From Azoarcus sp. (GTDB taxonomy: Bacteria; Pseudomonadota; Gammaproteobacteria; Burkholderiales; Rhodocyclaceae): a stretch of 64,000 nucleotides of DNA. The DNA is taken from assembly GCA_020725025.1 (NCBI GenBank), contig DYFV01000018.1, positions 1 through 64,000 of the forward strand, read 5' to 3'. Shown here piece after piece: positions 41,206-53,929 of the stretch. Positions within the stretch are counted from its first letter, which is position 1. Each line of letters starts with the position of its first letter. The position numbers were made by a program, and so were the translations under genes. A model generated the notes under the pieces. It had not been told where the DNA came from. It did not search any database and was given only the letters and a program-made list of their open reading frames with translations.

Positions 41206-41472
41206 TCAGGCCGACATCGCCTTGATCGCGGCAGACAGGCGGCTCTTGTGGCGGGCAGCCTTGTTCTTGTGGATGATCTTCTTGTCCGCGACGGAGTCGA
41301 TGGTGCTCATCGAGGAGCGAAAGACGGTCTGCGCCGCGGCCTTGTCGCCACCCAGGACGGCCTTCCGCACCGCCTTGATCGCGGTACGCAGACGGGAACG
41401 CAGGCTGGCGTTATGAGCGCGGGCCACGACCGCCTGACGGGCGCGCTTGCGGGCTTGTGCCGAATTGGCCAT
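41206..41472 (-). CDS. rpsT: 30S ribosomal protein S20
   Basis: 88 residues. [21 protein letters not shown], then [16 protein letters not shown] and [15 protein letters not shown], typical of S20. ATG 41472. Transcribed from the spacer shared with the end of the Wsp-like operon and closed by a terminator. Confidence 0.97.
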
Positions 41473-41568
41473 AGGTATTCTTCCGTTGGTTGGTTCTAGA
41501 AAACGCGCGATTGTAATACCCCAGCGCCCGTCGCGCAAGCAGCACGGCCGCCCGGTCCAATCACCGGC

Positions 41569-44526
41569 TCAATGCTTTCCGCGTGCCACCGGGTCATAGT
41601 CGCGCAGGAAGGCCGTGATCTCCTCGGCCGGTGCCGGCCGGCACAGGTGAAAGCCTTGCAGCGAGTTGCAGCTGTGCCGGGCGAGATAGGCCGCCTGGGC
41701 CTCGGTCTCGACCCCCTCCGCGACGACCCCGAGCTGCAGGTTGTGGGCGATGGCGACCACCGCGCGGCAGATCGAGGCGCTGCCGGGATCGACGGTGATG
41801 TCGCGCACGAAGCTGTAATCCACCTTGAGCCGGTCGACCGGCAGCCGCTTCAGATAGCTGAAGCTGGAGTAGCCCGTTCCGAAATCGTCGATCGCCACCT
41901 GGACCCCCTGCGCCTTCATCTGCCGCAGGAAGGAGATGAAGGTCTCGGGATCGTGCATCATCAGACTCTCGGTCACCTCCAGCTCCAGCAGATTCGGATC
42001 GAGCCCGGTCTCGGCCAGGATCCGGTTGATCGAGCCGAACAGGTCGTTCTCGCGGAACTGCGCCACGGAGAGATTGACCGAGATGGGGAAATCCGAAAGC
42101 CCCTGCTCGACCCACTCGCGATTCTGGCGACAGGCCTCCTTCAGGACCCATTCCCCGATGCGCACGATGAGCCCCGATTCTTCGGCGACGGGAATGAACC
42201 GGCCCGGCGGCACCATGCCCAGCTCGGGATGGTGCCAGCGGATGAGCGACTCCATGCCCGCGATGGCTCCGGTAGCGGCATCGAACTGCGGCTGATAGTG
42301 GAGCACGAACTCCTGGCGTACGAGCGCTTCGGCCAGGCGGTTTTCCACCTGGAGGCGCTCCGCCACGCGCACACCGAGCTCCGCCACGAACCGCTGCATG
42401 TTGTTCCGCCCCTGCTCCTTGGCGTGGTACATCGCCAGGTCGGCCGACATCAGCAGCGCGTCGGGGTCCTCGCCGTCGTCCGGGTACACGCTCACGCCCA
42501 GGCTCGCCGAGACCCGCACCGTCTCGCCGTCCTCTGGGACGATGGGCTCCGCGAGCGCCCCCTGGACCTCCTCGGCGAGCCGCAGGATGTCGGCGTCGTC
42601 GGCAACGTCGGAACAGATCAGGGCGAACTCGTCGCCACCCAGCCGGCCGAGGGTATCGCCTTCGCGCAGAGCGCGCCCCAGCCGGTCGCCGACGATGCGC
42701 AGCACCCGGTCGCCCACGTGGTGACCGAGGCCGTCGTTGATGATCTGGAAGCGGTCGAGGTCGAGACATACCACTGCCACCCGTGCGTCGTGGCGCTGGG
42801 CGAAGGCGATGGCCTGGCGCAGGCGGTCGCGCAGCAGGGCCCGGTTGGGCAGGCCGGTGAGCGCGTCGTAGTAGGCCAGGTAGTCGATGCGCGCCTCCTT
42901 GGCGAGGTAGTCGAGGGCGAAGGAGATGTCGCCCGCCACCTCCTTGAGCAACCGCAGCTCTTCCTCATCGAAGATATGCGGCTCGGGGGCATAGAGAGCG
43001 AGCACGCCCACCGGGACGCCTCCCTCGGCGAGCGGCAGCCCGATCATCGCCCGGAAGCCGCGCGAGAGCGCCTCGCCGGTCAGCGGCACGCCGGGGCAGT
43101 TGCCCACGTCGCGACAGACCACCGCGCGACCGGTACGGAGGACCTCGGCGAGCGTGCCGCCCGGCGTGGGCTCGAAACTCGCCGGCAGGGACCAGTCCTC
43201 GCCGGCCGCGCGCCACCGCTCGGATGCGCAGCATGCGGCGCGCACCATGCGGAGGCCCTCGTCCCTGACGATCCCTATCCACGCGAGCCCGAAGCCTCCG
43301 TGGTCCACCGCCATGCGGCAGGCGTCGTCGAAGAGCTCCTGCCGGTCGGTGACCCGCACGATGCAGGTGTTGATGCCGGAGAGCACCGCGTGGATGCGGT
43401 TCAGGCGGGCCACGCGCTCCTCGGCACGGGTGCGCTCGATCACCTCGGCGCGCAGCGCCGCGGTGCGCTCGGCCACCAGGCTCTCGAGATGCTCGTAGAG
43501 CCGGGCGCGCTCCAGGGCGACCGCCACCTGGTTGCCGACGGCGTCGAGCATGCGCAGCTCGTCCTGGTCGAAAGTCTCGCCGGCGCGCCCCATGAGGTTG
43601 ATGACGCCCAGGCAGCGATGATCGACCCACAGGGGGACGCTCGCGTGGGCCCCGACTGTCCGGGTACCGATGAGCCGCTCGCACTCCACCAGGAAGCTGC
43701 CGCGCTCGTGGCCGCCGCTGTGAAACGCCCGCCAGCAGGCACAATCGCCGGCGCGAGCGGGCACCTCCAGGGGCGCGGGAAGATTGCGCGCCGCGGCCAG
43801 GCGGCAGCCCCCGTCGCCCTCCGCGAGAAAGATCCAGCCGGCCTCGAAGCGGGGCAGGTCGAGCGCGGCCTGCAGGGTGCGGTCGCACACCTCCTGCTCG
43901 GTGGACACCCGGTTCAGCTCGTCGGCGATGCGGTACAGGGCGGCGAGGATCTGGTTGGAGCGGGCGATGTCCTTCTGCCGCTCCTGCAGCTCCTCGTTCA
44001 TGTGCACCGCTTCCTCGTAGGTCGAGATCAGGAGGTCGACTACCTGCTCGCGCTCCGAGGTGATGATGTGCTTCTTGCCCTCCAGGTACAGCTCCATCCC
44101 CTCGCGCAGCGTGCGCTCGCGCCGCAGCTCGAGGTTGAGCAGCATGTACTGGACCCGGGCGAGGAGCATCTTCGGGTCATAGGGCTTGCGGATGAAGTTG
44201 TCGGCGCCGCACTCGAGGCTGCGCGCCACATCCTCGGTCGCCGACAGCGAGGTGACGATCACCACCGGCACGTCCTTCAGCGCGGCATCCGACTTGATCG
44301 CCCGGCACAGCGCGTAGCCGTCCATCCGCGGCATGACGATGTCGCTGATCACGAGCGTCGGGCGTTGCGCGCGCACGGCCTCCAGCCCCTGCACGCCGTC
44401 GCGGGCGAGACGCACCGCATAGCCTTGCTCCTCCAGCAGGTAGCGCAATTGCTCGGCCTGGGTGAGGCTGTCCTCGACAATCAGGATGTCCACCGTTTGT
44501 CCGCCATCGGGCATCACGCTTGCCAT
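41569..44526 (-). CDS. Response regulator REC-GAF-GAF-GGDEF-EAL (WspR-like output)
   Basis: 985 residues. REC domain (about 10-125) with D62 as phosphoacceptor, a coiled linker, two GAF-like domains (about 195-340 and 380-540), GGDEF (630-634) with an intact RxxD inhibition site (R621, D624), and an EAL domain. There the signature is E759-S-L instead of EAL; N818, the LELEVTES motif, DDFGTGYSS (D880, D881) and K901 remain. Both diguanylate cyclase and phosphodiesterase activity are plausible. Last gene of the Wsp-like operon, where CheA-type kinase would phosphorylate D62. It plays the WspR role but is far larger than WspR (REC-GGDEF only). Confidence 0.9.
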   Translation of the reverse strand: MASVMPDGGQTVDILIVEDSLTQAEQLRYLLEEQGYAVRLARDGVQGLEAVRAQRPTLVISDIVMPRMDGYALCRAIKSDAALKDVPVVIVTSLSATEDVARSLECGADNFIRKPYDPKMLLARVQYMLLNLELRRERTLREGMELYLEGKKHIITSEREQVVDLLISTYEEAVHMNEELQERQKDIARSNQILAALYRIADELNRVSTEQEVCDRTLQAALDLPRFEAGWIFLAEGDGGCRLAAARNLPAPLEVPARAGDCACWRAFHSGGHERGSFLVECERLIGTRTVGAHASVPLWVDHRCLGVINLMGRAGETFDQDELRMLDAVGNQVAVALERARLYEHLESLVAERTAALRAEVIERTRAEERVARLNRIHAVLSGINTCIVRVTDRQELFDDACRMAVDHGGFGLAWIGIVRDEGLRMVRAACCASERWRAAGEDWSLPASFEPTPGGTLAEVLRTGRAVVCRDVGNCPGVPLTGEALSRGFRAMIGLPLAEGGVPVGVLALYAPEPHIFDEEELRLLKEVAGDISFALDYLAKEARIDYLAYYDALTGLPNRALLRDRLRQAIAFAQRHDARVAVVCLDLDRFQIINDGLGHHVGDRVLRIVGDRLGRALREGDTLGRLGGDEFALICSDVADDADILRLAEEVQGALAEPIVPEDGETVRVSASLGVSVYPDDGEDPDALLMSADLAMYHAKEQGRNNMQRFVAELGVRVAERLQVENRLAEALVRQEFVLHYQPQFDAATGAIAGMESLIRWHHPELGMVPPGRFIPVAEESGLIVRIGEWVLKEACRQNREWVEQGLSDFPISVNLSVAQFRENDLFGSINRILAETGLDPNLLELEVTESLMMHDPETFISFLRQMKAQGVQVAIDDFGTGYSSFSYLKRLPVDRLKVDYSFVRDITVDPGSASICRAVVAIAHNLQLGVVAEGVETEAQAAYLARHSCNSLQGFHLCRPAPAEEITAFLRDYDPVARGKH

Positions 44527-44539
44527 CGTCCTTCCTCGA

Positions 44540-45616
44540 TCAATCGACGCTCGCCTCGGGGGCGTCGGCGCATCCGACGACCCGCCGCAGGGCCGGTGCG
44601 ATGGCCGCGGGCGCGAGCACGTGCGCCGCAGCGCCGAGCTCCAGTGCCACGCCGGGCATCCCCGGCACGACGGCGCTTTCCAGGCTCTGGGCGATCGTCA
44701 CCGCGCCCCGGTCGCGCAGCAGCTTCAGCTCGGCCGCCCCGTCGCGCCCCATGCCCGACAGGAGCACGCCCACCGCGGCCGGTCCGAAGCTGTTCGCCAC
44801 GGAGCGGAACAGGCGGGATACGGCGGGCCGGTGGCCGTTTTCGGGCGGACCGCCGTCGAGCCGGGCGCGCACGCCGCCCAGGCCGTCCGGCTCCGCCGCG
44901 AGGTGCGCCCCGTCGGGTGCGACGTAGGCACAGCCGTGCACCAGCGTGTCGCCCTCGCCCGGCAGCAGGACCGGAAAGCCCGAGGCCTGTGCAAGCCAGC
45001 TCACGAAGCCGTCGGTGAAACCGGGCGAGATGTGCTGCGTGATCGCGACCGGCACGGGGAAGTGCTGGCCCAGGCCGGACAGGATGGTCTTCAGCACCAG
45101 CGGCCCCCCCGTGGATGCACCGATCGCCACCAGGCGCACCGGCACCCTCGGCCGCGGGTTCGTGTCGGCCGGGGCCCGCGCGGCAGGCCCACGCGGCCAG
45201 CGTCGCACCACCTTCACCGCCGCCATGAGGCGGATGGTATCGAGGAGCTTGCGCACGTCCTCGCCGACTACCCCCCACGGCTTGGCGACTATCGCCAGCG
45301 CGCCCGCCTCCACGATCCGGAAGGTGGCCGCGACCTCGCTGCGGGCGCTGCTGCTCGACACGACGACGATCGGCGTGGGCGTGCGTTCCATAATGAGACG
45401 GGTCGCCTCCAGCCCGTCCATGTACGGCATGTGGATGTCCATGGTGATCACGTCGGGCGCGAGCAGGCGCGCCTGCTCGATCGCCTCGAGGCCGTCGCCG
45501 GCCGTCCCCACGACCTCCAGGCGCGGGTCTCCGGAAATGATGTGCACCAGCTGTTCGCGCACGACGGCGGAGTCCTCCACCACCAGCACGCGCACCTGCT
45601 TGCCGCCCGCACTCAT
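44540..45616 (-). CDS. CheB-type methylesterase (WspF-like)
   Basis: 358 residues. REC domain with D60, linker, and methylesterase domain with the triad S168 (GASTGG), H195 (TQHIS) and D292 (GMGRDG). Removes methyl groups from the receptor and, when phosphorylated, resets the pathway. Its ATG overlaps the cheA stop (ATGA), so it is translationally coupled. In the Wsp layout it sits in the WspF position, just before the output protein. Confidence 0.93.
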   Translation of the reverse strand: MSAGGKQVRVLVVEDSAVVREQLVHIISGDPRLEVVGTAGDGLEAIEQARLLAPDVITMDIHMPYMDGLEATRLIMERTPTPIVVVSSSSARSEVAATFRIVEAGALAIVAKPWGVVGEDVRKLLDTIRLMAAVKVVRRWPRGPAARAPADTNPRPRVPVRLVAIGASTGGPLVLKTILSGLGQHFPVPVAITQHISPGFTDGFVSWLAQASGFPVLLPGEGDTLVHGCAYVAPDGAHLAAEPDGLGGVRARLDGGPPENGHRPAVSRLFRSVANSFGPAAVGVLLSGMGRDGAAELKLLRDRGAVTIAQSLESAVVPGMPGVALELGAAAHVLAPAAIAPALRRVVGCADAPEASVD

Positions 45617-47952
45617 AGCAGCCTCCGCACCGCGGCGAGCAGATTGTCCTGGTCGAAGCCGCTCTTCACCAGGTAGGCGTTCGCGCCCACGTCGGCCCCG
45701 CGCTCCTTGTCGCGGGGAGAATCGAGGGCGGTGACGAGGACGACCGGCAGGTCGGCGAGCCGGCGGTCCGCGCGCACCCGCGCCGTGAGGTCGAATCCTC
45801 CCATGCGCGGCATGTCCACGTCGGACACCAGCAGGTCGAAGGGCTCCGTGTGCAGGCGGGTGTAGGCATCCACGCCGTCCACCGCGGTGGTCACGCGATA
45901 GCCGGCCGACTCGAGAATCCCCTTGAGGAGGATGCGCGAGGTGATCGAATCTTCCGCCACGAGGATGGATTTCCTCTCCGGCCTCGGAGCGCGCGCGGGC
46001 CTCCGGCCGGCGAGACCGGATGCCTGCCTGGCCGATTTCGTCAGGTCGGGGAGATACAGGATGGGCACCACGCGACCGTTCCCGAGGACCGTAGCGCCGG
46101 CGATGTTGGGCACGCGGCGCAGTTGGCGGCCCAGGCTTTTCACCAGCACCTCCTGCTCGCCTATCACCTCGTCCACCTGGAACGCGATGCGCCGCTCGCC
46201 GTTGCCGCTCACCACGACCGGCATCATGGCCCGCTCCTCGCCGCCGCCCTCGGGGATCCCCAGCAGGTCGGCGAGCCTGACCAGGGCGACGGCCTCCCCG
46301 TCGATACGGATCACCTCCTGGCTTTCCAGGGTCGTCACCTCCTCGCGGCGCACGCGCTGCACCCGCTCCAATCCCATGGACGGAAAGATGAATTCCTCGC
46401 CCGCGGCCTGTACCCGCACTCCCCGGAAAGTCGCCAGACTGAGCGGGAGAACGAGCCGGAAAGTGGTCCCGAGGCCTGGTTGCGAGCTCACCGTCACCGA
46501 GCCGCCGAGCCGCTCCACCTTGTCGCGCACGATGGCGAGCCCCAGGCCGCGTCCCGAGATGTCGGTGACGAGCGGGCTGGTGCTCACGCCCGACTCGAAG
46601 ACGAGCTCGGCAAGCTGCTCCTCGTCGGCGGAAAGCGGCAGACCCAGCTTCTGCGCCGAAGCACGCAGGCGCGCGAGGTCGATCCCGGCGCCGTCGTCGG
46701 CCACCCGGATCTCGATCCGGCTGCCCTCGAGCTGGCTCACCGCCACTGTGAGGTTGCTGCGCCGCGGCTTGCCGTGGGCGGCGCGCACTTCGGGCGTTTC
46801 GATGCCATGGTCCAGGCTGTTGCGCACCAGGTGCATGAGCGGGTCGCGCACCTCCTCGAGCACACGCCGGTCGATCTCGAGCTCACCGCCGACGGCGTGA
46901 AAGGCGACCTCCTTGCCCTGCTCGCGCGCGAGGTCGCGCACCACCTTGGCCAGCGTCTCGAGGACCGCGCTGATCGGCAGCATCAAGGCGCGCTTCACGT
47001 CGTCCAGCAGCCCATCCACCTGGCTGCCCAGCGCGCGCGTGCCCTGCCCGGCCGATCTGGCGAGCGCGCCCAGCCGGGCGTCGAAGCCGCGCACGAAGGC
47101 CTCTTCGTCGCGCAGCCAGGCGAGGAGCCGGCGCAGCTGCTGCGTGTGGGGACCAAGCGCGCGTCCGGTCGCTTCGCCCGCGCCGCGCTCGAGCCGGCGC
47201 TGCAGCAGGCGCAGGTCCGGCAGCACCTTGGCCCTGGCGCGCCGATGGCGGGCGAAGGCCTCGCGAACCTCGGTGAGCTCCGCCTGCCGCGCGCGCGCCG
47301 CGAGCTTGGCCGCGAGCAGGGCCTCGGCCTGGTAGAGCACGGCATCGAGGCGGCCGACCTGGATGCGCACCGTGCTCGCCGCGTCCGACGGGCGGGGACG
47401 CTCGGGTGGCGGCGGGGTACGCTCCGCCTCGGACGGCACGTGCCGCGCGAGGGCCGGGGCACCGCCGGCAGGGGCAGGTGCGGGCTCCGCGACGGGTGCC
47501 ACCGACACCCTGGCGGACGTAGTCGGCGCGGAAGCGATGGCAGCGCCGGCGGCGGCTTCGATGCGCCGCGCGAGATCGGCCACGCCGGCACGATCGGCGG
47601 CCGAGGGCGGATGATCGATATCGGCGAGGAGCGCCTCGAGCCGCTCCACCATCGCGTGAAGCAGCCCGACCAGGGATGGCGCGAGCTCGATCCTCCCCTC
47701 CTTGGCCGCGGCCAGCACGTCCTCCGCGGCCTGGCACAGCTGCTCCATCTCGCCGCGTTCCACCGCCCGCGCCGCGCCCTTGAAGCTATGCACGTCGCGG
47801 AAGAACGCCTCCACCAGCTCCGCGCGCCGTGCCGGCTCCGGGTTCTCGTCCAGCGCGGCGAGCCCGTCCGCCATGGTGCGGACGAGCTCCTCCGCCTCCA
47901 CCCGGAAAGTGGCAAGCAGTCGCTTGAGGAAGGCGGCGCTCTGTTCGTTCAT
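45613..47952 (-). CDS. Hybrid CheA-type histidine kinase with C-terminal REC (WspE-like)
   Basis: 779 residues. HPt domain with the phospho-His H55 in DVHSFKGAAR, an A/P-rich linker (about 125-195), a dimerisation/HATPase unit (HLVRNSLDHGIE, DDGAGID, GRGLGLAIV), a CheW-like domain and a REC domain from about 660 (phosphoacceptor near D711 in VSDVDMPRMGG). This CheA-REC arrangement is that of WspE. It starts at ATG 47952, overlapping by one base the stop of the receptor gene (TGATG), and overlaps cheB downstream. Confidence 0.92.
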   Translation of the reverse strand: MNEQSAAFLKRLLATFRVEAEELVRTMADGLAALDENPEPARRAELVEAFFRDVHSFKGAARAVERGEMEQLCQAAEDVLAAAKEGRIELAPSLVGLLHAMVERLEALLADIDHPPSAADRAGVADLARRIEAAAGAAIASAPTTSARVSVAPVAEPAPAPAGGAPALARHVPSEAERTPPPPERPRPSDAASTVRIQVGRLDAVLYQAEALLAAKLAARARQAELTEVREAFARHRRARAKVLPDLRLLQRRLERGAGEATGRALGPHTQQLRRLLAWLRDEEAFVRGFDARLGALARSAGQGTRALGSQVDGLLDDVKRALMLPISAVLETLAKVVRDLAREQGKEVAFHAVGGELEIDRRVLEEVRDPLMHLVRNSLDHGIETPEVRAAHGKPRRSNLTVAVSQLEGSRIEIRVADDGAGIDLARLRASAQKLGLPLSADEEQLAELVFESGVSTSPLVTDISGRGLGLAIVRDKVERLGGSVTVSSQPGLGTTFRLVLPLSLATFRGVRVQAAGEEFIFPSMGLERVQRVRREEVTTLESQEVIRIDGEAVALVRLADLLGIPEGGGEERAMMPVVVSGNGERRIAFQVDEVIGEQEVLVKSLGRQLRRVPNIAGATVLGNGRVVPILYLPDLTKSARQASGLAGRRPARAPRPERKSILVAEDSITSRILLKGILESAGYRVTTAVDGVDAYTRLHTEPFDLLVSDVDMPRMGGFDLTARVRADRRLADLPVVLVTALDSPRDKERGADVGANAYLVKSGFDQDNLLAAVRRLL

Positions 47953-49601
47953 CAGCGCTTGTACTGGTCCAGCAGGGCCTTGAGCTTCACCCCGAGCTGG
48001 TGCAGCCGCTGGGCCGCCGCCTCGGCCTGGCGGGTGCTCGCCACGTTCTGGCTGCTCGCCTCCCGGATGTTCTGGATCGCGAGCACCGACTGGTCCATCC
48101 CGATCAGCTGCTGCTGGGCGGACACCGCGATCTGGGTCGCCAGCCCGGCCGCCTCGACGATGCTGTCGGTCAGCGCCCGGATCGACTCGCCGGCCTCGCC
48201 GGAGAGCCGCACCCCGGTCTCGACCGCGCGGCTCGCCTGCTCGGTGGCGAGGACCGCGGTGCCGGTGGCCTTCTGCACGTCCCCGAGGATGGTGCGCACC
48301 TGGCCGGTGGCCTGCTTGGACTGCTCGGCGAGGCTCTTCACCTCCTGCGCCACCACCGCGAAGCCCTTGCCCTGCTCGCCGGCCTTGGCCGCCTCGATGG
48401 CGGCATTCACCGCGAGCAGGTTGGACTGCTCGGCCAGGTCGTTCACCGTCGCGATGATCTCGCCGATCGACTGGCCCAGCTCCGACAGGCGCATGATGCT
48501 CTCCGCGATCGACTCCATCTGCTCCTGGATGCGGTGCATGGACTCCACCGACTCCTCCACCGACTTCTTGCCCCCCTGGGAGACCTCGGCGGTGCGTTGG
48601 GCCGACTCCGAGACCTGGCGCGCCCGCTCGGCGGCCTGCTGGGAGGTCTGCTTGACCTCCTCCACGGTGGCGGTGGTCTGGTTGATGGCCGTGGCCGTCT
48701 CCTCCGAGGCGGAAGCGACCTGGGCGGTGGCGGCCATGATCTCGCTGGTGGAGGCGGCGACCACGTTCGCCGTCTCGCTGGTCTCCTGGAGCAGGCGCGC
48801 GATGCGTTCCTCGCCGCGCTTGCGCTCGGTGATGTCCACGATGCTGGCGAGCACCACCGTTCCCTCCTCGGTCTCGAGCGGGCTCAGGCCGATCTCGACC
48901 GGAAACTCCATGCCGGCCTTGTTCACCGCGTACAGGTCGCGCCCGGCGCCCATCGCGCGCACGGTCGGGTCGGCCATGTAGCCGGCGCGCAGTGCCGGAT
49001 GGCGCGCGCGCATGCGCTCCGGCACCAGCATCTCCACCGGCTGCCCGAGCAGCTCCTCGCGGGTGTAACCGAACAGCCGCTCGGTCTGGAGGTTCACCAG
49101 GGTGATCCGGCCGTCCCGATTGCTGAGCACGATGGCGTGCGGGGCCGCCTCCACGACGCGCCGAAAGGTCTCCGCAGCACGCTTGCGCTCGGTGATGTCG
49201 ATGATGCTGGCGAGCACCATCGTCTCGCCCGCGACCTCGATCGGGTTGAGGCCGATCTCGACCGGGAACTCCGAGCCGTCCTTGCGCAGGGCGAACAGGT
49301 CTCGTCCACCACCCATGGCACGGGTGGTCGGCGCGACGAAGAAGCCGGCACGGTGGCCGGGATGCCTGGCGCGGAAGCGCTCCGGCACGAGCCGTTCGAC
49401 CGGCTGGCCGACGAGCTCGCCGCGGGTGTAGCCGAAGAGCTGCTCGGTCTGCGCATTGACGCGCGCGATCCGCCCCTCCCGGTCGACCAGCACGATCGCG
49501 TTGGGCGCTGCCTCGACGATCCGCCGGTACAGCTCCAGTTCGCGGTCGCGCCCGCTCCCGAAGAATCCGGCGGATGTCCGCCATTTGCTCAGGTCCAGCA
49601 T
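47952..49601 (-). CDS. Soluble methyl-accepting chemotaxis protein with tandem PAS
   Basis: 549 residues. Two closely similar PAS domains in tandem (about 25-140 and 145-262; both carry AIVL, LFGYTR, GQPVE, LVPER and EFPVEIGL) lead into a long coiled-coil signalling domain with the hairpin tip EQSNLLAVNAAIEAAKAGEQ. There is no transmembrane helix, so it should sense a cytoplasmic cue such as redox or a bound cofactor. No C-terminal NWETF-type tether is seen (end LLDQYKR). In classical Wsp the receptor (WspA) is membrane-bound and first in the operon; here it lies between the second cheW and cheA. Confidence 0.9.
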   Translation of the reverse strand: MLDLSKWRTSAGFFGSGRDRELELYRRIVEAAPNAIVLVDREGRIARVNAQTEQLFGYTRGELVGQPVERLVPERFRARHPGHRAGFFVAPTTRAMGGGRDLFALRKDGSEFPVEIGLNPIEVAGETMVLASIIDITERKRAAETFRRVVEAAPHAIVLSNRDGRITLVNLQTERLFGYTREELLGQPVEMLVPERMRARHPALRAGYMADPTVRAMGAGRDLYAVNKAGMEFPVEIGLSPLETEEGTVVLASIVDITERKRGEERIARLLQETSETANVVAASTSEIMAATAQVASASEETATAINQTTATVEEVKQTSQQAAERARQVSESAQRTAEVSQGGKKSVEESVESMHRIQEQMESIAESIMRLSELGQSIGEIIATVNDLAEQSNLLAVNAAIEAAKAGEQGKGFAVVAQEVKSLAEQSKQATGQVRTILGDVQKATGTAVLATEQASRAVETGVRLSGEAGESIRALTDSIVEAAGLATQIAVSAQQQLIGMDQSVLAIQNIREASSQNVASTRQAEAAAQRLHQLGVKLKALLDQYKR

Positions 49602-49653
49602 ACTTTTCGTCTCCTTTCGTCGTCAGCCCGGCGTGCGGGCTGCCTGCCTGTGT

Positions 49654-50280
49654 TCATGTCTCGAGCGACTCGTCGACGACCATGCGCGGATCGGCCAGCA
49701 GCACCGCCGCGTCGAGCACGGCAATGCGTCCGTCGGCGATTCCCCTCAGATAGTCGCGGCGCCGGTCGGTCAGGGTCGGCAGCGGCCCCTGCAGCCGCGC
49801 GGCGGCCAGCGTCCGCACGCCCTCCACCGAGTCGGCCAGGATGCCGAACACCATCTCGCGCGACTGCAGCACGATGACCTTGTTGAGGTCGGAGAGCCCG
49901 TCGATGGGGCGATCGAAGAACCTGCGCAGATCGACCACCGAGACGATCTCGCCCCGCAGGTTCACGATGCCCAGCACGAAGGGCGGTGTTCCCGGCAGGC
50001 GTGTCAGATCGATGAGCGGAAAGACCTCCGCCACCCACGCCGTCTCGATCGCGTAGGATTCGCCGGCGAGCCGGAACTCGATCACCTCGAGCTGCGGTCC
50101 CTCCTCCTGTCGCGATGGTGGCGCGGCCAACTCGCGCGCCCGCTCGCGCAGGATGGTCCGCGCCCGGTCGGGGCCCGGCTGCCAGGTCTGCTCCAGCGCC
50201 TCGCCCAGCGCATCCACGTGCCTGCGCACGGTGTCCCAGTCGACGGGCGCGGCGCGGCGCGATCGGGGCGTGCGGTTCAT
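49654..50280 (-). CDS. CheW-like coupling protein (WspD-like)
   Basis: 208 residues. A 60-residue N-terminal extension, then a CheW domain from about EVIEFRLAGESYAIETAWVAEV through FVLGIVNLRGEIVSVVDLRRFF. Couples the receptor to the kinase. Its ATG (50280) overlaps the cheR stop as ATGA. Longer than canonical CheW, as is WspD. Confidence 0.88.
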   Translation of the reverse strand: MNRTPRSRRAAPVDWDTVRRHVDALGEALEQTWQPGPDRARTILRERARELAAPPSRQEEGPQLEVIEFRLAGESYAIETAWVAEVFPLIDLTRLPGTPPFVLGIVNLRGEIVSVVDLRRFFDRPIDGLSDLNKVIVLQSREMVFGILADSVEGVRTLAAARLQGPLPTLTDRRRDYLRGIADGRIAVLDAAVLLADPRMVVDESLET

Positions 50281-51710
50281 GCGGCGCTCTCCATGCCGAG
50301 AATGGCTTCGATCATCCGGACCAGCTGCCCGGCCGGCAGATCGTCGGCCTCGGGCAGCGCCTGCCCCGGCGGCAGTGCCCGCAGCCCCGTCAGCGCATGG
50401 CGGTAATGCTTGGCCGCCTGGGCGTCGCGCCCCTGTGCGGCCAGGGCGTTGCCCAGCGCGAACTGGGCCACGGCGAGACCCGGCTCGAAATAGAGGCTGC
50501 GCCGGAAGGCGGCCACGGCTTCCTCCATCCGTCCCTGTTCGAGCAGGATGGAGCCACGCAGGTAGGCGCCCACCGCATCGAGCGGCTGTTGCGCGAGGGC
50601 GCGCTCGCACCAGGCGAGCGCGTCGTCGAGGCGGCCCGCATTGGCCAGCGTGCGGGCCGTGACGCGCATGGAATCGGCGTCGGCGGGCGCCTGCGCGGCC
50701 TCCCGCTCCGGCGGTCGCACGATCTCGCCGCCTCGGAACGGCCGCCCGGTCCGTGGGATGGCTGCCGGCGGCGGGTTGCCGCCTTTCGATACGGAGGATC
50801 GGCGCGCAGCAGGCGGGACCGCCGCCTCTCCCTTGCGGAACAGCAGCACACCGGGCAACCGTTCGCACACGAGACCCGGCGTCGCCGCCAGCCCCGCCTC
50901 CACCGCGCTCACCATCAACCAGCCGCCCTCGCAGAGGCTGCGCTGCAGCCGCGCCACGGCGCGCTGCACGTGCTCCGGCTGCAGGTACATCAGAACGTTG
51001 CGACAGAAGATCACGTCCATCGCGGTGGTGTTGGTGCCGACCGCGGGATACGCGTCCTCGGCAAGATTGAGGGGAAGGAAACTCACCATCGCCTTCAGGC
51101 GTTCGTCTATGCGGTAGTGGCCGTCGGGCAGGCGCTGGAAGTGCCGCGCCCTGAACTCGGGAGACGTGGTGCGGAAGGACCAGTCGCGGTAGACGCCCTG
51201 CCGCGCGATCGCGAGGGCCGCCCGGTTCACGTCGGTCGCCAGCAGCGTGATGTGCCACCGCTCCCAGTCCGGCACGCACTCCTGCAGGGCGATGGCGATC
51301 GAATAGGCTTCCTCGCCGGTGCTGCAGCCGGCGCTCCAGATGCGCAGCCGGCGGCCTTCCGCCGGCCCGCTGCCGCGCGAACGGATCAGGGGGGGCAGGA
51401 TGTGGTCGCGCAGGGCGGCGAAGGCCGCCGGATCGCGGAAGAAGTAGGTCTCACCCACCGTCAGGTGGTGGATGATGACGTCCATCGTCTCCGGGTCGAT
51501 TCCCTGCGACAGCATGCGCTCGATGCACCCGGGCACGTCCGGGCATCCCTGCTCCCGCGCCGCCACGCGCACCGCACGCGCGACCTCCGGCCAGCGGCGG
51601 CGGGGGATGTCGAGGCCCAGCACGCCGGAAAGGTGCCCGCAAAAGGCCTCCAGCAGTCCATGCGACTCGGGGTCGAGCAGTTCCGGACTATTCACCGCCG
51701 TGGACCTCAT
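50277..51710 (-). CDS. CheR-type receptor methyltransferase with C-terminal TPR (WspC-like)
   Basis: 477 residues. SAM-dependent glutamate methyltransferase: [19 protein letters not shown] is the SAM motif, [18 protein letters not shown] the CheR signature, and a P-rich linker (about 310-350) leads into tetratricopeptide repeats ([40 protein letters not shown]). WspC has the same CheR-TPR layout. ATG 51710 overlaps the end of the first cheW; GTG 51695 is an alternative start. Confidence 0.9.
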
Positions 51711-52134
51711 CCGCGACCGCCACAACTTCCGCGAGCAGGGCGTCGAGGTCGTGCACCAGGACCAGCCCATCCGGACCGCGTGCAATGCCGCGCAGCCGAT
51801 GCCCCCCGGGCAGGAACGGCTCGGCCTCGACGAAATCGGATTCCGGCCATGACGCCACGCCGCTCACTTCGTCCACCCACAGGGCCAGCGAGCGGGTCGC
51901 GACATTGACCAGCACGAACTGCGCGGCCGGCACGAGGGCGCGCGGCGGCAGGCCGAAGCGCGCGCGCAGGTCGACGACCGGCATCACCTCGCCGTGCACG
52001 TCGATCACCCCCGGAATGCCGGGATGCGCCTGCGGCAGGGGGGTGATGTCGACCGCCCGTACCACCCGCGCCGTGGCGTCCAGCGGCAAGGCGAATTGCC
52101 GCTCGTCGAGGCTGAATACCACCCCACACTGCAT
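51688..52134 (-). CDS. CheW-like coupling protein (WspB-like)
   Basis: 148 residues, a minimal CheW domain: [24 protein letters not shown] and [22 protein letters not shown]. First gene of the chemosensory operon; its stop lies inside the cheR frame. ATG 52134 (MQCGVVFSL). The promoter must lie in the divergent 256-base spacer to murJ (52135-52390), where I see no confident sigma-70 match. Confidence 0.88.
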
Positions 52135-52390
52135 CGCACCCCCCTGTGCGGCACGCAGGCAGCCTCCCCCGGCCACCCGCCCGTCTTTCTACAATAGGCC
52201 ACACCTGCCACCATGCGGTAGGTGGAGTACGGGTTTCTCACAAGTACGGCCTCCCAGGCCGGTATATACACGCGGGAGCGCCAATCGTTCCCCGGCGTCA
52301 CCAACTGTTGCGCCGCGAAACCCCGGTACCCGATGGAATGGAGTCGCGTGTCGCGCGCTATCATCACGACTTTTTCGCCCGCCACCCCGA

Positions 52391-53929
52391 ATGAACCTCC
52401 TGCGCGCCCTCGCCACCGTGAGTGGAATGACCCTGCTCTCGCGCATCCTGGGCTTCGTGCGGGATTTCGTGATCGCGCGCAGCTTCGGCGCCGGGCTCGC
52501 CACTGACGCCTTCTTCGTCGCCTTCCGGCTCCCCAACCTGCTGCGGCGCATGTTCGCGGAAGGCGCCTTCTCCCAGGCCTTCGTGCCCATCCTCGCCGAG
52601 TACAAGAACCGTCAGGGACCGGAGGAAACCCGCCGCCTGGTGGACCGGGTGGCGACCGCGCTGGCGCTGGCGGTGGCGTTGGTGGCGCTGCTCGGGGCGA
52701 TCGCCGCCCCCGCCATCGTGTGGATCTCGGCGCCCGGCTTCCGCGCCGAGCCGGACAAGTTCGCGCTCACCGTCGAGCTCACCCGCATCACCTTCCCCTA
52801 CATCCTGTTCATGTCGCTGGTGGCGTTCGCCGGCGGCATCCTCAACACCTGGAGCCGGTTCGCGATCCCGGCCTTCACGCCGGTGCTGCTCAACGTCTCC
52901 TTCATCGCGATGGCGCTCTTCGCGGCCCCCTACTTCGACCCGCCGGTGCTCGTGCTCGGCTGGGCGGTGTTCCTGGGGGGCGTGCTGCAGGTCGCGCTGC
53001 AGGTACGCCCCCTGGCGCGGCTGGGGATGCTGCCGCGCTTCGACCTCGCCCTCTCCGATCCCGGCGTGCGGCGCATCGCGAAGCTCATGGCGCCGGCGCT
53101 GCTGGGGGTGTCGGTGAGCCAGGTGTCGCTGCTCATCAACACCATCTTCGCCTCCTTCCTGGAAAGCGGCAGCGTGTCCTGGCTCTACTACGCCGACCGG
53201 CTGATGGAGTTTCCGGCGGGGCTGCTCGGGGTCGCCCTGGGCACCATCCTGCTGCCCAGCCTCTCCAAGCTGCACGCCGGCGAGGATCGCGACGGGTTCT
53301 CGTCGCTTCTCGACTGGGGCCTGCGCCTCACCCTGCTGCTCACGCTGCCGGCGGCGCTCGCCCTCGCCCTTCTCGCCGTGCCGCTCATCGCCACCCTCTT
53401 CCACCACGGCGCCTTCGGCGCCGAGGACGTCATGCAGACGCGGCTCGCGCTGGTCGCCTACAGCGTGGGTCTCACCGGGCTCATCCTGGTGAAGATCCTC
53501 GCCCCCGGCTTCTACGCCCGCCAGGACATCCGCACCCCGGTGAAGATCGCGGTGGTGACGCTCGTCGCCACCCAGGTGATGAACCTCGCCTTCATCGTGC
53601 CGCTCAGGCACGCCGGCCTGGCGCTGTCGATCGGGCTGGCGTCGCTGCTCAACGCCGGGCTGCTCTTCCGGGGCCTGCGCGCCCGCGCGGTGTACCGGCC
53701 CCAGCCGGGCTGGCTCGGCTTCGCGCTCAGGATCGCAGTGGCGCTGGCGGTGCTCGGCGCGGTGCTATGGTACGGCATGGGCAGCACGGCCAGCTGGCTC
53801 GAGCAGGACGCCCTCGCCCGCGCGCTGCGCCTGACGGTGCTGGTCACCGTGGGGGCGGCCGCCTACTTCGCGACGCTCTTCGCGCTCGGATTCCGCCTGC
53901 GCGACTTCCGCCGCCGGGGTGCAGTCTAG
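52391..53929 (+). CDS. murJ: Lipid II flippase MurJ
   Basis: 512 residues with about fourteen membrane helices. [30 protein letters not shown] and [32 protein letters not shown] are strongly conserved in MurJ/MviN. It flips lipid II for peptidoglycan synthesis. Start at ATG 52391 matches the family N-terminus; the upstream open frame is not coding. It lies beyond the Wsp-like operon from rpsT. Confidence 0.96.

Follow-up and report, generated by a model that had tools for sequence, protein, structure and literature searches.

What does a chemosensory array sense, and in which direction can it drive cyclic di-GMP (c-di-GMP), when its receptor is soluble and its output enzyme carries both a GGDEF and an EAL domain? 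The question is raised by seven genes lying between the housekeeping genes rpsT and murJ in a 64,000-nucleotide stretch of Azoarcus sp. DNA (assembly GCA_020725025.1, contig DYFV01000018.1, positions 1 to 64,000; hereafter the window), which a first-pass annotation had described as overlapping or nearly touching and as forming a Wsp-like chemosensory operon. The gene set was borne out (Table 1): with the ATG start codons that we chose, all seven genes are complete, lie on the minus strand and overlap their neighbours or stand 13-52 bases from them, and the Pfam domains in all seven proteins score above cut-offs. Key residues are present in the kinase CheA (H55, and D711 in its fused REC domain) and in the methylesterase CheB (S168, H195 and D292, with D60 in REC). 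Judged by the marks of the cluster and by our own tree rather than by class models, this is a complete chemosensory operon of the alternative cellular functions (ACF) type. With slightly more confidence than doubt, we read it as an ACF pathway of a lineage ordered cheW-cheR-cheW-MCP-cheA-cheB-output (MCP, methyl-accepting chemotaxis protein), acquired as a cassette, in which a receptor for gas or heme redox state would set a dual c-di-GMP output.

Two marks of ACF clusters, a CheR with tetratricopeptide repeats (CheR-TPR) encoded in the cluster and a multidomain response regulator as output, are found in the window (criteria from the sections covered of PMC3447774). Genome contigs scanned with a seven-row CheA alignment yielded at least 592 matched stretches, 579 of them encoding a relative, and 80 loci were kept; among the matches listed, the order cheW-cheR-cheW-MCP(s)-cheA-(x)-cheB-output is complete in 36 of the 80. 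The remaining 44, not sorted singly, comprise loci cut by contig ends as well as real variants (L051, L067, L078, L089 and L097; L and G numbers are our handles for loci and genomes). Record titles of the matching loci name several bacterial phyla and archaea, mostly as metagenome-assembled genomes (MAGs), in which binning errors are possible. The mid-operon position of the receptor, which had been taken as a departure from known systems, is common in this lineage. A tree of 107 CheA rows over the P3-P5 region, built by a quick method with branch support from the Shimodaira-Hasegawa-like approximate likelihood ratio test (SH-aLRT) only, places the window CheA in a 92-row clade of such operons (SH-aLRT 99); over this region it is 64% identical to the CheA of L155. 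Outside the clade lie the flagellar-type (L010, with L131 beside it) and Chp-type (L011) kinases of the same genome, labelled by che-gene context alone rather than from flagellar genes themselves, together with L165 and a third type of operon found in the genus. No flagellar affiliation, which the annotation had set against its own proposal, emerged: in the tree the operon's CheA stands apart from the flagellar-type kinase of the same genome. The third type is itself ACF-like, ordered cheR-(double CheW)-MCP-cheA-cheB-REC (L163, L164, L166, L167 and L168, with L169 cut by a contig end), and its loci are flanked by GGDEF-EAL-REC genes, on both sides in 4 of 5, with A-sites such as GMDDF, GVDDF, ASDEF and AGDEF.

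The description of the receptor as soluble with tandem PAS domains also held, Pfam recognizing two PAS domains in a protein with no hydrophobic segment of membrane strength (maximum 19-residue hydropathy 1.32). Aligned to 3zx6, which we take to be Tsr, a 36H receptor, it carries two 14-residue insertions, one per arm, and is therefore 40H-like. In its signalling domain it shares 74-79% identity with receptors of G167, G072 and G133, 61% with a second receptor of G072 and 82% with a fragment from G179. The receptors examined in L155, L158 and L026 are CHASE3-HAMP proteins or otherwise membrane-bound. Topology was counted in 83 related operons, which together encode 95 receptors with a signalling-domain score of at least 200 bits (window excluded); 77 of the 83 have a receptor with at least two predicted membrane segments. 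Five of the other six (L021, L028, L069, L090 and L100) have receptors that begin no more than 80 bases from a contig end, two of these showing one membrane segment, and the sixth, L056, offers a short frame of 286 residues. Whole soluble receptors occur in two related operons, each time beside a membrane receptor: one with five PAS domains in L188, and a soluble protoglobin-MCP in L197 (L197:13113-14486), the second receptor of that operon, which matches the heme transducer HemAT. A soluble receptor with tandem PAS domains is atypical for this operon lineage.

The solved structures that best match PAS1 and PAS2 are the heme PAS domains of FG214 (10jx), FixL and DosP. Both domains align without gaps to the FixL heme PAS, and in both the positions that we take to be the heme-ligand His and distal Arg of FixL are filled (H80 and R100 in PAS1, H201 and R221 in PAS2). 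When an AlphaFold2 model of PAS1, made from a two-row alignment (mean predicted local distance difference test score 80.4), was compared with the Protein Data Bank, entries for the heme PAS domains of FixL, FG214 and E. coli DOS/DosP filled ranks 1-26. In a control over the annotated loci, 49 PAS domains were scored: both His and Arg occur in four, His alone in five, Arg alone in five and neither residue in 35. Two of the four belong to the window receptor; the others lie in a membrane receptor of L155 and in a kinase-like gene of L021. Both positions are also filled in all 21 PAS rows listed for the PAS tree, as read by eye. Together these matches suggest that the window PAS domains are putatively heme-binding. 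PAS1 and PAS2 are 68% identical and pair together in the PAS tree (support 86/70), while PAS domains of PAS-PAS histidine kinases are 57-68% identical to them. Nine such kinases, each adjoining a REC gene (L138, L139, L141, L145, L147, L148, L149, L152 and L154) and HisKA_2-like by eye, carry the PAS pairs closest to the window pair among those found, with the FixL His and Arg kept. Wholesale derivation of the PAS-PAS module from histidine kinases was considered and set aside in view of the identity and pairing of PAS1 and PAS2; a tandem duplication within the MCP gene would account for the module at least as well as a takeover from kinases.

The output was confirmed by Pfam as the 985-residue protein with GGDEF and EAL domains that had been described. 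Its REC domain has D62, GGDEF lies at 630 and RxxD at 621, no residue of the EAL set is missing, and the remaining GGDEF motifs that were inspected are intact too. The best solved matches are the GGDEF-EAL proteins 4rnh and 5m3c, presumably MorA and MucR; 5m1t is labelled MucR. Both catalytic motif sets thus look intact, which is unusual for the operon type: among 30 REC...GGDEF-EAL outputs, window included, the A-site is degenerate in 24 (two of them incomplete frames) and intact in six, namely the window and five outputs of one genus (L025, L204, L206, L207 and L208). The EAL set is complete in 28 of the 30, the others being cut by a contig end (L203) or split over two frames (L197). An earlier set of outputs had given degenerate A-sites in 20 of 22 and complete EAL sets in 22 of 22. 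The usual output of the lineage looks like a phosphodiesterase, opposite to that of Wsp. In the sister outputs of L155 and L158 the A-site reads AADKF and VADKF with RxxD still there, and the window output therefore probably retains an older intact GGDEF state that these sisters lost. It is possible that it switches c-di-GMP in both directions, as had been proposed. A separate GGDEF gene, in some cases with a GGEEI or GGDEI motif, lies between cheA and cheB in L020, L027, L028 and L037, and after cheA in L188; synthesis and breakdown may be paired in this other way in the first four.

As for the origin of the operon, rpsT and murJ stand head to head, 112-126 bp apart, in 16 of 16 other genomes of the genus, whereas in the window 10.8 kb with just the seven operon genes separates them, and stretches of the intergenic sequence can still be recognized on both sides. 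Counting the source genome, 3 of the 17 genomes of the genus have a CheA of this type (E<=1e-100), the other two being G006 and G016, and 25 of 300 genomes of the order have the cheW2 marker (E<=1e-25). Because the distribution is patchy and an occupied site stands against empty ones, horizontal acquisition of the operon as a single cassette appears likely. A search for a target-site duplication at the borders gave just a 7-base GC-rich match. A plasmid origin was rejected, since 395 plasmid records match CheA (E 1e-40 or better) but none reaches 80% query coverage and all are below 60% identity, which speaks against a close plasmid copy. In a Hydrogenophaga MAG (L032:9899-11908) a related operon adjoins rpsT-murJ, but across rpsT, by chance or because the site is a hotspot.

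If this reading is right, the two PAS domains, as FixL-like heme sensors, would let a soluble receptor array detect a diatomic gas (most likely O2, otherwise NO or CO) or the redox state of the heme, and the MCP signalling domain with CheW1 and CheW2 would set autophosphorylation of CheA at H55. Phosphate would pass to D62 of the output REC, D60 of CheB and D711 of the CheA-fused REC, the last a likely phosphate sink, while CheR-TPR and CheB would provide methylation adaptation. Phosphorylation would tip the output towards its diguanylate cyclase (GGDEF) or its phosphodiesterase (EAL) activity.

Alternatives concern both kinship and function. It is very improbable that the operon is a true Wsp system, that is, a surface-sensing operon whose output raises c-di-GMP. 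The set of roles is identical, and CheR-TPR, CheA-REC and a c-di-GMP output are all present; to this extent, including the ACF marks, the earlier description stands. Kinship with Wsp is not supported. In Wsp operons the receptor gene comes first, as it does in L165 of the same genus (genome G014), which is Wsp-type by context (MCP-CheW-CheR-CheA-CheB-REC-GGDEF, a second CheW having been missed by the scan), whereas the window operon runs cheW-cheR-cheW-MCP-cheA-cheB-output, has a receptor with no membrane segments and an output that is not REC-GGDEF, and was accordingly rejected as a member of Wsp. Its order is likewise unlike the wspA-F synteny, which is conserved (PMC8552884, in the part covered). 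Its CheA also falls off the branch of L165 and L119, in a tree with no named WspE, a single Wsp-type reference (L165, by context) and deeper forks at SH-aLRT 81-85. An old, vertically inherited operon that other congeners lost is improbable too. Related operons do exist in G006 and G016, and the GC content of the insert (0.71) resembles that of the right flank (0.70; left flank 0.66). However, the CheA proteins of G006 and G016 are 49-50% identical to that of the window, no closer than those of other genera or families (50-52%, one 39%), and both genomes keep a short, empty rpsT-murJ gap despite their own operon, against an insert of seven genes and nothing else in the window.

On function, a phosphodiesterase-only ACF pathway, in which the GGDEF domain with its intact motif would be a GTP-binding regulator and the net effect c-di-GMP breakdown, is unlikely but a serious contender: it would suit the prevalence of degenerate A-sites with full EAL sets and the state of the nearest relatives, and it has a precedent in FimX, which is stimulated by GTP and combines EAL with a degenerate GGDEF (PMC8846402, in the part covered). 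Against it stand the intact A-site, I-site and other examined GGDEF motifs of the window and the GGDEF kept in five more outputs, all of one genus. We also regard it as quite unlikely that the PAS domains carry FAD or no cofactor and respond to energy or redox state in the manner of Aer or BdlA rather than to gas. BdlA and McpS, with two PAS domains and an MCP domain, are listed as predicted FAD binders (PMC8694187, in the part covered), but heme PAS domains are closest to the window pair among solved PAS structures, by sequence and by fold, and the His and Arg are filled in both copies and in all 21 rows read by eye.

Several points count against the gas-sensing, dual-output pathway that we favour. 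The PAS1 model, built from a two-row alignment, is poor at residues 75-78, and fold matches among PAS domains are weakly specific: the heme entries are followed at rank 27 by a sensory box whose cofactor is unstated and, from rank 34 on, by LOV domains. The heme test considers just two FixL residues; R206 and H214 of FixL, which we take to be further heme-contact residues in that numbering, are not kept in PAS1 (Gly and Arg by alignment). In most related operons the receptors sit in the membrane, and the window CheA could also take input from receptors encoded elsewhere in the genome. The GC content of the insert is no sign of foreign origin, and an intact GGDEF motif is not proof of cyclase activity.

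Table 1. Positions of the operon genes, the insert and its flanking genes in the window.
Feature	Coordinates	Strand	Product and domains
cheW1	51688..52134	-	148 aa; CheW by Pfam, 9.1e-27
cheR with C-terminal TPR	50277..51710	-	477 aa; CheR 4.3e-47 and TPR by Pfam
cheW2	49654..50280	-	208 aa; CheW by Pfam
MCP, soluble chemoreceptor	47952..49601	-	549 aa; PAS1-PAS2-MCP signalling domain; 40H-like
cheA-REC hybrid kinase	45613..47952	-	779 aa; Hpt-HATPase-CheW-REC
cheB	44540..45616	-	358 aa; REC and methylesterase
output	41569..44526	-	985 aa; REC-GAF-GAF-GGDEF-EAL; A-site GGDEF, I-site REGD, EAL residues complete
rpsT (S20)	41206..41472	-	left flank of insert
murJ	52391..53929	+	right flank of insert
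insert between rpsT and murJ	~41540..52356	.	flank similarity stops near the borders, read by eye

No sigma-70-type promoter or terminator was found in 52100-52420, where close to none would be expected by chance, so that this result is uninformative. Another chemosensory cluster (L009, G000:C27:69041-74152) lies beyond the window, about 17 kb from the operon; it encodes a CheA, which groups with the CheA of three congeners, and two CheV-like CheW-REC proteins.

The operon type is known; it is the pairing of sensor and output that is unusual within it. Wsp serves as the model system for c-di-GMP control by chemosensory proteins, and it acts in one direction, that of synthesis. The degenerate GGDEF and complete EAL that prevail in the outputs surveyed here suggest a broad sister lineage built on breakdown. 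In the window operon, synthesis and breakdown may be united in a single enzyme governed by a soluble receptor that probably reads a gas; the operon would offer a direct way to test how a chemoreceptor array with adaptation lets an oxygen or redox cue in the cytoplasm set a second messenger. A wider proposal, which we hold tentatively and with more doubt than belief, is that it is a portable cassette in which a soluble tandem heme-PAS array reads intracellular gas and drives a bifunctional enzyme, in a widespread ACF lineage that is usually of the phosphodiesterase kind with Wsp as its mirror image. If true, soluble heme-type sensing was recruited at least twice in the lineage, through PAS domains here and a globin in L197.

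Among known systems, clusters with CheR-TPR are classed as ACF, and their regulators include about 20 GGDEF, one EAL and two GGDEF+EAL proteins, so that the output architecture itself is already published (2 cases; PMC3447774, in the sections covered). The ACF operons of that study resemble the window in CheR-TPR and in REC fused to output domains; GGDEF degeneracy and a soluble receptor of heme-PAS type are not treated in those sections. Among the papers listed by literature searches, none was seen on a chemosensory output with a degenerate GGDEF or on a heme-PAS receptor feeding c-di-GMP via CheA. The Wsp system of Pseudomonas and Betaproteobacteria shares with the window the role of each Che protein and a c-di-GMP output (PMC8552884, in the part covered) but differs in gene order, receptor topology and CheA branch, and its WspR is a cyclase. 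Closer to hand, L155 (in G167) and L158 (in G133), from the same family, have a similar REC-GAF-GGDEF-EAL output, the GGDEF-EAL part of L155 being 64% identical to that of the window and one of its receptors having a PAS domain with the same His and Arg; they differ in their membrane-bound receptors, degenerate GGDEF and an extra C-terminal REC-like part. On the sensor side, BdlA and McpS of P. aeruginosa likewise place two PAS domains ahead of the MCP domain, but as described that domain is unusually short and the PAS domains are predicted to bind FAD (PMC8694187, in the part covered). The heme-PAS receptors IcpB and Aer2 and the globin receptor HemAT are heme-based MCPs, IcpB being cytoplasmic, but according to the part covered of PMC13401364 they serve aerotaxis or aerotaxis-like sensing without a dedicated c-di-GMP output operon. 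For the sensor side of the window operon, the closest analogue that we found in print is a predicted cluster of a myxobacterium with a PAS and globin MCP, for which oxygen sensing has been proposed (PMC6194562, in the part covered).

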